NCBI RefSeq assembly: GCF_016863315.1
Contig: NZ_BOOQ01000059.1
Coordinates: 1-64,000, forward strand
Reading direction: 5' to 3'
DNA length: 64,000 nucleotides
DNA from: Planotetraspora silvatica
Lineage (GTDB): Bacteria > Actinomycetota > Actinomycetes > Streptosporangiales > Streptosporangiaceae
Shown: piece by piece, positions 39,626-48,749 of the stretch
Layout of the letters: the number at the start of each line of letters is the position of its first letter
Position numbering within the stretch: the stretch's first letter is position 1
Translations under genes and position numbers: made by a program
The notes under the pieces: model-generated
The model's input: the letters and a program-made list of their open reading frames with translations, nothing else
What the model was told of the DNA's origin: nothing
Database searches by the model: none

Positions 39626-39743
39626 GTGATCATGCACAGGTTCGTGATCAGGCCGTCCCACCTGCGAAAACCCCTGGCGTGATCATGCGCAAGTTCGCGA
39701 ATTCACGCCCTGAGCTGGGAAGTCGTCGATCGTGATCATGCAA
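39626..39743 (+). repeat. 53-bp phased repeat array A (three forward units)
   Basis: The core GTGATCATGC recurs at 39626, 39679 and 39732, exactly 53 bp apart, in the gap between the ltp4-like and ltp3-like genes. Units 1 and 2 keep TTCG at unit positions 16-19 and CACCTG/GAGCTG at 34-39. Unit 3 is cut short by the GTG start of the downstream gene at 39757. No reverse arm is present. Same unit as the arrays at 42538 and 48326. Confidence 0.93.
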
Positions 39744-40936: not shown

Positions 40937-42541
40937 ATGGAGTTCAATCACGCCGACCTTTTCGAAGGGTTCGCGGACACGATCGGGGACCGGGTGGCCG
41001 TCGTCTGCGGCGACACCCGTATGACATACGCCGAACTCGACGCACAGGCCAACCGCCTCGCCCATCACCTGGCCGCCCAGGGTGTACGGCGCGGGCAACA
41101 CGTCGGGATCCAGCTCTACAACGGGCTGGAGTACATCACCGCGCTGCTCGCGGCGCTGAAGATCCGGGCCGTGCCCGTGAATGTGAACTACCGCTATGTC
41201 GAGGCGGAACTGGTCTACCTCTATCGCGACTCCGACATCGTGGCGTTGCTGTTCGACGTCGAGTTCGACGGCCGCGTCGCCGCCGCCGCTCCCGAAGCTC
41301 CCGCGCTGCGTCACCTCATCGCCGTCGGCGGCGACTCCGCCATCTCGGAGGCCGTGCCGTACGGCGAGGCCCTGGAAGCGCAACCGGCGACGCGAGGGTT
41401 CGAACCGCGGACCGGCGAGGACATCTACATCATCTACACCGGTGGGACCACCGGCATGCCCAAGGGCGTGATGTGGCGGGTCGAGGACCTGTTCATGGCG
41501 TTCGGCGGGGGCAACCCGTACGGCGCGCCGCTGGAGACGCCGGAGTCGGTCATCGAGCAGGCGCGCAACGCCAACCCGATCGTCATGATGGCCGCGCCGC
41601 CGCTGATGCACGGCGCGGCGCAGATGGGGACGTTCCTGTGTTGGTGCATGGGCTCCACCATGGTCTACGTCCGCAAGTTCGACCCGGTCGCCGTGTTGCG
41701 GGCGATCGAGCGCGAGAAGGTCCTCAGTATCAACATCACCGGCGACGCGATGGCCCGTCCGCTGGCCGAGGAGATCGCCACCGGGGCGTACGACCTGTCC
41801 TCGCTCGCCGTCGTCAGCTCGACGGGGGCGATCCTCAGCGGCACGGTCCGGGCGCGGCTGCAGGAGTTGCTGCCGCACTCGATGATCATGGACAGCTTCG
41901 GGTCGACGGAGTCCGGCTTCACGGCGTCGGGAGTCGCGGGGTCGACTCCGGAGGCCGGTCTGAAGTACCAGCCCAAGGCCGATGCGGGCATCGCCGTACT
42001 GGACGAGAAGCTCAGGCCCGTCGAGCCGGGCTCGGGAGTCATGGGAATGGTCGCGAGGTCGGGGCGCATCGCCTTCGGGTACTACAACGACCCGGACAAG
42101 ACCGAGCGGACGTTCGTGACTGACGGCGAGGGCATCAAATGGCTGCTGTCGGGCGACATGGCCATGGTGGAAGAAGACGGGACGATCCAGATCTTCGGCC
42201 GGGGCTCGCAGTGCATCAACACCGGCGGGGAGAAGGTCTTCCCCGAGGAGGTCGAGGCGGTGCTGAAGGGGCATCCATCGGTTTTCGACGCCGTCGTCAC
42301 CGGGATACCGGACGACCGCTGGGGCTCCCGTGTGGCGGCCGTGGTCCAGCCGTATGAGGGGACCGCTCCCGTGTGGGAGGAACTGGACACCCACTGCCGG
42401 GAGAGGTTGTCGGGGTACAAGGTGCCGCGAACGTATGCGTTCGTGGAGGAAGTACTCCGGTCGCCGGCCGGCAAGGCCGACTACCGATGGGCCAAGCAGA
42501 TCGCCCAATCCGCCACCACCCCACCCCCCACCCCGGCGTGA
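40937..42541 (+). CDS. FadD19-like acyl-CoA synthetase
   Basis: A 534-aa ANL ligase. The adenylate motif is IIYTGGTTGMPKGV, with MDSFGSTESGF, RGSQCINTGGEKVFPEEVE and a C-terminal SPAGKADYRWAK carrying the catalytic lysine. The N-terminal part (MTYAELDAQANRLAHHL, PVNVNYRYVEAELVYLY) closely resembles mycobacterial FadD19, which activates steroid side chains such as the C24-branched or cholestenoic acids. ATG 40937 lies 31 bp after the ltp3-like gene and closes the catabolic run. Its TGA stop is formed from the first four bases (GTGA) of the first unit of array B. Confidence 0.9.
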   Translation: MEFNHADLFEGFADTIGDRVAVVCGDTRMTYAELDAQANRLAHHLAAQGVRRGQHVGIQLYNGLEYITALLAALKIRAVPVNVNYRYVEAELVYLYRDSDIVALLFDVEFDGRVAAAAPEAPALRHLIAVGGDSAISEAVPYGEALEAQPATRGFEPRTGEDIYIIYTGGTTGMPKGVMWRVEDLFMAFGGGNPYGAPLETPESVIEQARNANPIVMMAAPPLMHGAAQMGTFLCWCMGSTMVYVRKFDPVAVLRAIEREKVLSINITGDAMARPLAEEIATGAYDLSSLAVVSSTGAILSGTVRARLQELLPHSMIMDSFGSTESGFTASGVAGSTPEAGLKYQPKADAGIAVLDEKLRPVEPGSGVMGMVARSGRIAFGYYNDPDKTERTFVTDGEGIKWLLSGDMAMVEEDGTIQIFGRGSQCINTGGEKVFPEEVEAVLKGHPSVFDAVVTGIPDDRWGSRVAAVVQPYEGTAPVWEELDTHCRERLSGYKVPRTYAFVEEVLRSPAGKADYRWAKQIAQSATTPPPTPA

Positions 42542-42939
42542 TCATGCACAGGTTCGTCCGCATGCCCGTTGGCCAGCGCGAACACCGGCCGTGATCATGC
42601 ACGGGTTCGGTGGGGTGGCGTCTGGTCAGCGGGTTCTCGGTTCGTGATCATGCACGGATTCGGGGAAACGTCGGCCGACCAGGGGTTTCGTCGTTCGTGA
42701 TCATGCAATGCCGACTTGCATGATCACGAAGTGTGTACGGCCAGCTGGTCGCGGGTTTGCGCGAATGTGCGCATGATCACGAACTGAATCAGCGCAGGTC
42801 GTCCGGCCAATCAGCGAAAGTGTGCATGATCACGGCCGGTGTTTGCGCTGGTCAGGCCGGCAATCTCCGAACCTGTGCATGATCACGCCCGGGGGAGTGG
42901 CAGGTCAGGGGGTGCCTCGTCGAACCCGTGCATGATCAC
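42538..42939. repeat. 53-bp phased inverted repeat array B (4 forward + 5 reverse)
   Basis: Forward cores (GTGATCATGCAC or one-base variants) start at 42538, 42591, 42644 and 42697. Reverse cores end at 42727, 42780, 42833, 42886 and 42939. Every step is exactly 53 bp. Within each unit positions 1-12 (core), 16-19 (TTCG) and 34-39 (mostly GACCTG or GACCAG) are conserved and the rest vary freely. The first four reverse units mirror the forward ones about 42712; the fifth is extra. The array fills the 407 bp between two convergent genes, overlapping the stop of one. The centre is a perfect 15-bp stem with a 7-nt loop (42694-42730). No gene is seen here. Confidence 0.96.
42694..42730. terminator. 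Central hairpin of array B, bidirectional terminator candidate
   Basis: TTCGTGATCATGCAA at 42694-42708 and its exact complement at 42716-42730 enclose a 7-nt loop. It stands midway between convergent genes, so it could end both transcripts, though it lacks a U-tract and is AT-richer than the other terminators here. Confidence 0.5.
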
Positions 42940-42948
42940 GGCGGGTGA

Positions 42949-43581
42949 TCACGCGGATTCGGAGGTGAGGGCGGCGACGGCTCCCAGGCCCAGGTAGACC
43001 ACTCCGCTGCCCACGTCCAGGCGCCGCCGGGCCCGGGCCGACTGGCGGAGCCGCCCGGCCAGAGCCGACGACAGGAGGGCGTAGCTGCCGTCGCTCGCCA
43101 TTCCGAGCACGATCCAGATGAGCCCGAGCACCACGATCTGCGGCGCCAGGGGTCCTCGCGACGGGTCGGCGAACTGCGGGAGGAACGCCAGGAAGAAGAT
43201 CGCCGTCTTGGGGTTGAGCACGTTGACGACGAACCCCTCTCCGAACAGCCGGGACCGGGACGCCCGCCGCATCTCGAAGGGCTCCTCCGCAGCGGAGCGT
43301 TTGATCAGCTTGCGGATGCCGAGGTAGACCAGATAGGCCGCACCCAGGTACTTCACGATCGCGAAGGCCGTCGCCGACGCCGCGAGCAGCGCGCTGATGC
43401 CGAGTGCCGCGGCGGTCACGTGCACCACCGAGCCGGCGTGGACCCCGAGCACCGAGACGAGCCCCGCCGCCCGGCCTTGGGCGACGCTGCGGGTCACGAT
43501 GTAGACCACTGCGGGTCCCGGTACCAGGAGCAGAGCGAGGGTCGCGGCCGCGAACAGGGCGAGCGTCGGAATCGGTGGCAT
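42949..43581 (-). CDS. LysE-family amino-acid exporter
   Basis: A 210-aa membrane protein with six predicted helices, of the LysE/RhtB exporter family. The N-terminal pattern LALLLVPGPAVVYIVTRSVAQGRAAG and the middle NVLNPKTAIFFLAFLPQF with the conserved N-P-K are diagnostic. These carriers export amino acids or analogues. It is convergent with the FadD19-like gene across array B and lies 45 bp upstream of a LysR gene on the same strand, so the LysR protein may regulate it or the divergent dehydratase. Confidence 0.92.
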   Translation of the reverse strand: MPPIPTLALFAAATLALLLVPGPAVVYIVTRSVAQGRAAGLVSVLGVHAGSVVHVTAAALGISALLAASATAFAIVKYLGAAYLVYLGIRKLIKRSAAEEPFEMRRASRSRLFGEGFVVNVLNPKTAIFFLAFLPQFADPSRGPLAPQIVVLGLIWIVLGMASDGSYALLSSALAGRLRQSARARRRLDVGSGVVYLGLGAVAALTSESA

Positions 43582-48325: not shown

Positions 48326-48749
48326 GTGATCATGCACACCTTCGGAAGGATGCCCACTGACCTGCTGACATGCTCGCCGTGATCATGCACAGCTTCGGAA
48401 AGACGCTCGCCGACCTGCGGATATCCCCAACGTGATCATGCGCGGATTCGGGGAAGTCGCCCCCGGTCGGCCTGAATGCCCGCCGTGATCATGCACAAGT
48501 CGTCCGTACGGTGACTGCGGAGGCCGTGCATGATCACGGGATGTGAATCGCCTGGTCGGCGGCATGGCTGGCGAAACCGTGCATGATCACAGAACGCGTT
48601 CATGCTGGTAGGGGCGTATTTCCCCGAACCTGTGCATGATCACGACAAGCGTCGCCACAGGTCAGAGGCCGTTCTTCCGAACCTGTGCATGATCACGGCC
48701 GGGGGCGTCGCAGGTGGGACGCCCTCCGGCCGAAGGTGTGCATGATCAC
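48326..48749. repeat. 53-bp phased inverted repeat array C (4 forward + 5 reverse)
   Basis: Forward cores GTGATCATGCAC start at 48326, 48379, 48432 and 48485; reverse cores end at 48537, 48590, 48643, 48696 and 48749. All steps are exactly 53 bp. Nearly all units keep TTCG at positions 16-19, and most keep GACCTG-like text at 34-39. The first four reverse units mirror the forward ones about 48511, with a fifth extra reverse unit, exactly the plan of array B. The array lies in a 591-bp non-coding gap between two minus-strand genes, M20 peptidase (3' end) and VWA protein (5' end). Small open frames inside it are not convincing genes. Confidence 0.96.

Follow-up and report, generated by a model that had tools for sequence, protein, structure and literature searches.

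Phased and mirrored 53-bp repeat arrays at gene ends in Planotetraspora, and a putative protein that may bind them

In Planotetraspora silvatica the gap between an AMP-binding enzyme gene and a convergent gene for a LysE-type translocator is occupied by array B, nine copies of the core GTGATCATGCAC, four forward and five reverse, in which every same-strand step is 53 bp. What keeps these copies in register, and what might they do? The initial annotation of the window (the whole 64,000-nucleotide stretch of DNA that was analyzed) proposed that the spacing and three short motifs are maintained by selection, either in an array bound cooperatively by a dedicated protein or in a large folded transcript end.

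Anatomy and copy number of the arrays

Re-counting of the positions in array B upheld the nine copies, their orientations and the strict 53-bp step, and the mirror symmetry of the first eight units about position 42712 holds as well. The coordinates of the arrays and of the genes next to array B are given in Table 1. TTCG, which had been ascribed to every unit, is present at +15 in all seven full units and is missing from the two terminal half-units (42697 and 42716). The GACC(T/A)G block that had been described for most units stands exactly at +33 in four of the seven full units; two of the other three have GGCCAG or GGTCAG at +33, and in the third GACCAG comes 3 bp early. The neighboring genes converge as originally described, but the array is not wholly intergenic, the first forward core overlapping the stop of the AMP-binding gene. 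Immediately right of array B, a further forward core, degenerate and with ATTCGG after it, overlaps the end of the LysE gene (window positions 42945-42962).

Table 1. Positions of the arrays and of the genes adjoining array B
Feature	Position	Strand	Description
Array A	39626..39743	+	Single forward arm (two full units, then a terminal half-unit) flanked by thiolase-like genes, both on the + strand
AMP-binding enzyme gene	40937..42541	+	Stop TGA (42539-42541) within the first forward core of array B
Array B, forward arm	42538..42708	+	Three full 53-bp units (cores at 42538, 42591 and 42644), closed by a terminal half-unit whose core is 42697-42708
Array B, hinge	42709..42715	no strand	7 bp separating the two terminal cores; its counterpart is 7 bp in P. 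mira, 8 bp in P. kaengkrachanensis and 46 bp in P. thailandica
Array B, reverse arm	42716..42939	-	Terminal half-unit (core 42716-42727), then four full units with cores at 42769-42780, 42822-42833, 42875-42886 and 42928-42939
LysE-type translocator gene	42949..43581	-	Convergent neighbor; coding end 9 bp past the last reverse core of array B
Array C	48326..48749		Two arms with a 29-bp hinge; between two - strand genes
Array C, forward arm	48326..48496		Four cores
Array C, reverse arm	48526..48749		Five cores

A unit consensus was built from 101 P. silvatica units, 331 units of named loci and 51 units of P. thailandica loci. It runs from C-GTGATCATGCAC-N3-TTCG through a stretch of weak conservation to YGACCTGC, followed by a weak AC and the next core, with the YGACCTG block at about +32 to +38 of the unit. 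Little conservation is seen past the terminal core. The arms, which hold two to six cores per row, are head-to-tail 53-bp modules closed by a terminal half-site. Steps within arms measured 53 bp in 586 of 619 cases, 52 bp in 22 and 54 bp in 11, with a detector that admitted 51-55 bp. Of 59 arrays with facing terminal cores, 19 have a hinge of exactly 11 bp and the others one of 7 to 193 bp; among the lengths other than 11, periodicity was not significant. Consecutive arm pairs less than 4 kb apart run forward then reverse in 76 of 88 cases. With direct repeats at constant spacing, conserved motifs and free spacers, the arrays show the sequence features of an iteron-type cooperative array.

With up to two mismatches allowed, the core occurs 27 times in the window where 3.98 occurrences would be expected, and none of 100 shuffles reached 27. 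The 8.66-Mb P. silvatica genome (117 contigs) contains 560 exact matches to core-N3-TTCG (291 + 269), and the reversed-pattern control gave 0. All five Planotetraspora genomes (P. silvatica, G000; P. kaengkrachanensis, P. mira, P. phitsanulokensis and P. thailandica, G001-G004) were positive for the exact pattern, with 560 copies in P. silvatica, 10 in P. thailandica and 462, 513 and 138 in the others. Arrays A and C are of the same family as array B, and array A was found in all five species. The initial annotation held that its reading would fall if the three arrays of the window were the only ones and were absent from relatives. The search of this genome and of related genomes found hundreds of units in the former and positive relatives, an outcome that favors a phased array.

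Conservation, dialects and distribution

Orthologous arrays were compared between species, with arm orthology assigned by reciprocal best flank match and units anchored by their flanks. Across 22 orthologous units, P. silvatica and P. kaengkrachanensis differ by 3.0% in the core, 8% in TTCG, 23% in YGACCTG and 44-55% in the spacers, with the DNA flanking the arrays 90.9% identical (9% different). The comparison with P. mira (41 orthologous units; flanks 95.7% identical) gave 2.8% difference in the core and 17-18% in the spacers. The spacers thus diverge well past the flanking DNA, and the motifs are retained. Step lengths are kept in 113 of 119 orthologous steps and hinge lengths in 5 of 16, in species pairs that share branches and in a count outside which steps altered by more than two bases fall, as such steps split an arm. 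Substitution and spacing counts cover the 41 of 100 arm pairs with equal unit number, 59 being left out. Core-versus-spacer divergence and step-length retention back the proposal that spacing and motifs are under selection.

The positions of the arrays are mostly shared. Twenty-three P. silvatica arrays were examined, four of them (L025-L028) lying outside the sister comparison. Where both flanks were located, at least two cores were found at 19 of 19 places in P. mira and at 18 of 19 in P. kaengkrachanensis. Among 16 located arrays in P. phitsanulokensis, 13 have at least two cores, one has one core and two have none, and 15 have fewer cores than in P. silvatica. Because the arrays of this species are mostly shortened and two are absent, the full array is not indispensable. 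P. thailandica has an array at both of the two located places, and array C is also present there. At L164 and L235-L244, which are P. phitsanulokensis loci, arrays are often cut to one to three cores in total at places where the sisters have full ones. The exception in P. kaengkrachanensis is L011 (3033-3406), which carries an array in P. silvatica and P. mira; its counterparts in P. kaengkrachanensis and P. phitsanulokensis (L371 1486-2229 and L235 8387-9064) hold a predicted gene and no core, so it is not a clean empty site. The lack of an array in two species at L011 indicates that array positions turn over at some sites.

P. thailandica has few exact copies of the P. silvatica pattern but 372 + 352 with one mismatch. 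Its dialect is mostly GTGATCATGCAG-AAG-TTCG, with the core end spelled CAG-AAG. Exact CAG-AAG-TTCG occurs 577 times in P. thailandica, once in each of the four sisters and not at all in G062, G079 and G212, three family genomes of other genera. In array A the spacers align in all five species, and the dialect has changed in place with the terminal core unchanged; this base-by-base reading comes from the arrays of one region only. An in-place change of dialect is the trace that an altered recognition surface in a trans factor would be expected to leave. That P. thailandica has a spelling of its own throughout the genome suggests docking rows for a DNA-binding protein.

A generic 53-bp pattern was matched by 18 of 338 genomes of the family (reversed control, 0) and by 9 of 394 genomes of the class. 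Twelve of the family genomes have at least 14 matches per strand (the five Planotetraspora, G062, G070, G074, G076, G079, G211 and G212), and the remaining six have one to three matches in all. Array-bearing genomes belong to genera g1, g24 and g51 and to part of g30, whose other genomes are array-free. The 53-bp step is kept in other genera with cores of other spelling, namely CRC-N3-TTCCCG in G062, GTGATCTTGTAGTTTGTCGCA in g30 and a form near GTGATCTTGCGAATTCTCGCA in g51, and a GACCTG-like block is found in most of the units listed for these genera. At G094:C5:82497 and 249788, in another genus of the family, the generic pattern matched a different-looking repeat, GTGATCTTG...CAAGATCATTTCAGG.

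Nearly all of 325 class genomes have few copies of the 11-mer GTGATCATGCA. It is frequent outside the family in G373 (413 copies), G432 (328), G579 (106), G491 (90), G371 (45), G414 (35) and G399 (24), and its tails are lineage-specific in other actinobacterial families (for example CGTCCTGGG, ATCCCGCCACCC and CGCCAGCGCA). The strict 53-bp step was absent from the GTGATCATGCA loci read in other families, which in G373, G432, G491 and G579 were L281-L287, L290-L306 and L318-L337. The head of the 11-mer points toward a gene 3' end at 29 of 32 sites in new stretches of G432 and at 13 of 32 in G373. Inverted GTGATCATGCA pairs form hairpins in distant families. In G399 and G414, which belong to one family, 60-nt hairpins start with GTGATCATGCA and end with its complement (L307 6392-6451 and L308 3119-3178), and their inner stems are of equal length and quite different sequence. 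The GTGATCATGCA-rich genomes may carry relatives of the 53-bp arrays or a convergent motif.

Position of the arms relative to genes

Gene contexts were taken from a simple purpose-written gene finder and not from annotation. Arrays were found in 59 of 129 convergent, 91 of 385 tandem and 9 of 196 divergent gaps, at loci of which many were chosen for holding arrays and which include orthologs from several species. No arm lies inside a predicted gene in any of seven sets (60-bp margin). The arm head is at a gene 3' end in 100 of 147 arms; 89 of these 100 are within 50 bp of the stop codon, and 22 use the TGA of the core as the stop. Single arms in tandem gaps run along transcription in 36 cases versus 20 against it (p 0.044, with orthologs from several species counted), which lends weak support to a role in transcription.

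A binding-row model and its alternatives

With a confidence that is only slightly above even, we favor the reading that the arrays are directional rows of double-stranded DNA sites for a putative co-evolving, oligomerizing protein, with a boundary role. A sequence-specific protein would bind one protomer per 53 bp, the bound protomers would oligomerize along the arm, and arms would often face tail to tail across the hinge. The recognition surface of the protein may co-evolve with its sites, giving rise to the lineage dialects. The nucleoprotein row could then form a boundary between adjacent transcription units, either blocking read-through or absorbing supercoils; we infer this role because arrays lie preferentially between convergent genes and seldom between divergent ones. 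The array family probably spread earlier as discrete elements, to judge from the dispersed, mutually related copies of one other genus, and would now be mostly inherited in place in Planotetraspora. A broader formulation, on which we are tentative and rather doubtful, is that of a bacterial insulator system in which orientation-dependent 53-bp arrays bound transcription units and a fast-evolving oligomerizing protein recodes jointly with its hundreds of sites.

The strongest facts behind the binding-row reading are the kept spacing, the kept motifs, the mostly shared positions and a dialect that extends genome-wide. Its weakest points are the protein itself, which is putative, helical-phase evidence that does not hold, positional turnover and element-like copies in one genus. 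Nothing independent backed the claim that all cores face one side of the helix: in the information profile, the 10.6-bp harmonic is not significant (p 0.49). Apparent helical phasing in G432 (p about 2e-4) came from a set in which some loci had been picked up by a 53-bp pattern, and it was not reproduced at new loci (V -0.20). Taken as a whole, the initial annotation was borne out in its view of selection on spacing and motifs and gained no support for a folded transcript end, and its binding protein is one that we also infer. Word and motif-letter searches of open-access full text (subscription literature lying outside) found no description of the motif.

RepA iterons and the partition site parC consist of direct repeats in phase, an arrangement that lends itself to cooperative binding by protein. 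The arrays resemble them in their phased direct repeats, which may likewise serve such binding; they differ in that hundreds of units are dispersed over the chromosome at gene ends, in mirrored arms. Should a single protein bind the arrays, every such genome would hold hundreds of its sites, with the spacing kept while the spacers drift. The sister species would then be natural experiments, P. thailandica with a changed dialect and P. phitsanulokensis with shortened arrays. A joint change in specificity of a DNA-binding protein and hundreds of sites would become testable, and it could be asked whether convergent genes in bacteria are separated by directional boundary elements.

The most serious alternative, which we nevertheless judge improbable, is a non-autonomous MITE-like repeat whose 53-bp modules are transposase sites at both ends and which settles in harmless gaps with no host function. 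Tn7/Mu-type ends have several direct repeats resembling binding sites at each end, with the two ends inverted, and the arrays likewise have direct repeats in inverted arms. In G062 (genus g24), 20 arrays chosen for a similar hinge (L350-L369) mostly share related left units, center and right units. The center is a similar 27-28 bp, left units differ from right units, the innermost spacers have mean identities of 0.58 and 0.52, and the similarity, judged by eye, stops about 7-10 bp outside the outer cores. Of these arrays with both neighbors called, 13 of 18 lie in convergent gaps. The array family thus appears to have been dispersed in at least one genus, and a mobile element would account for the g24 arrays without a host function. 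The difference between species at L011, and the weak identity of its own that a unit's position along the arm carries (0.396 versus 0.372), also fit such an element. In addition, 10 of the 12 arm pairs that enclose a single gene are forward then reverse (L060, L072, L080, L102, L105, L132, L137, L143, L144 and L154), some of them being mutual orthologs.

Against a mobile element, the ten enclosed genes scanned all belong to ordinary Pfam families (TypA/BipA, CobD, FdhD, P450, GNAT, M20 peptidase, GH20 and DUF309), with no transposase among them. Target-site duplications at the 20 G062 loci, one of which is incomplete at its left edge, showed no excess over mismatched pairs (lengths 2-10, offsets 0-3). 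Planotetraspora arm pairs with spacer identity above 0.7 numbered 0 of 595, 1 of 2080, 3 of 2775 and 0 of 153, and almost no recent copying between loci was seen in this genus. Positions match in P. mira and P. kaengkrachanensis. Motifs are retained while spacers outdrift the flanking DNA, which would not be expected of functionless copies. Phage and plasmid records contained no match to array B, nor viral contigs to its two-unit pattern. The G432 dialect had no match in viral contigs either, and a looser pattern of another genus matched 12 viral stretches once each. The arrays differ from MITEs and Tn7/Mu ends in their mostly shared positions, their kept motifs and the absence of detected target duplications and enclosed transposase genes. 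A mobile origin followed by a later host function is compatible with the binding-row reading.

A 3'-untranslated RNA element, in which the arms are transcript structure (a terminator or stabilizer) downstream of genes, is distinctly less probable. It would explain why arm heads lie near stop codons, and array B folded as RNA is far below shuffles (z -12.35); the hairpins of distant families, with their differing inner stems in G399 and G414, are also in its favor. However, the strong fold of array B can arise from mirrored cores alone. Array A, a single arm, folds weakly (z -1.92), and the 60 nt after single arms have a mean z of -0.22 versus -0.05 in the control. In the pairing test that had been proposed, 431 distinct units showed no Watson-Crick covariation of a helix-like kind, mutual information lying mostly between adjacent positions. 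Mirror-paired spacers are 0.398 identical versus 0.396 between unrelated arrays, for which reason a long hairpin between the arms was rejected, and no covariation was seen in the bases beside the hinge. These results speak against a large folded transcript end, and arrays are also found in nine divergent gaps. A terminator hairpin in the hinge is not supported as a general rule: inner hinges of at least 40 nt had a median z of -0.32, with 4 of 22 below -2. Rfam covariance models at the gathering score gave 0 matches in the window, and a tRNA scan of the window was empty.

Less probable again, and to our mind very unlikely, is a watermark of the DNA-uptake type (DUS) found in Neisseriaceae, maintained by biased uptake and recombination and not by per-site selection. 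To our knowledge, DUS do not occur as multi-unit rows at a fixed step. For DUS, PMC3630211 describes lineage dialects, inverted pairing at the ends of genes and, in one reading frame, a TGA, and it calls intragenic DUS common. The array core is likewise a short, strongly over-represented 12-mer with lineage dialects, present in hundreds of copies, located at gene ends in inverted pairs and providing a stop codon in one frame, and a few genomes of other families (G373 and G432, above) are rich in the 11-mer, there with different tails. In contrast to the intragenic DUS of PMC3630211, 0 arms lie within predicted genes. The arrays are further distinguished by their rows of 2-6 cores, their 53-bp step and their additional conserved blocks.

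Finally, we give almost no probability to the reading that the arrays are REP/BIME or REPIN repeats dispersed by a transposase of the RAYT (Y1) type; Y1_Tnp (PF01797) had no match in G000-G003, G062, G074, G079, G371, G373, G432, G491 or G579. REP/BIME repeats are high-copy and extragenic, lie at gene ends and in convergent gaps and occur as direct and inverted copies, in all of which the arrays resemble them. The arrays differ in their 53-bp step, dialects, mostly stable positions and general lack of Y1, and the 53-bp unit, with no conserved stem and no helix-like covariation, is not the short palindrome of a REPIN. RAYT spread was rejected for the array family as a whole because PF01797 is missing in the P. 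silvatica genome and in most of the motif-rich genomes searched (12 of 15). Y1_Tnp matches were obtained in 6 of 22 genomes, three of them array-bearing (G004, G211 and G212) and three with no 53-bp pattern (G069, G071 and G082), and the positive-control search matched 5 of 14 well-known genomes.
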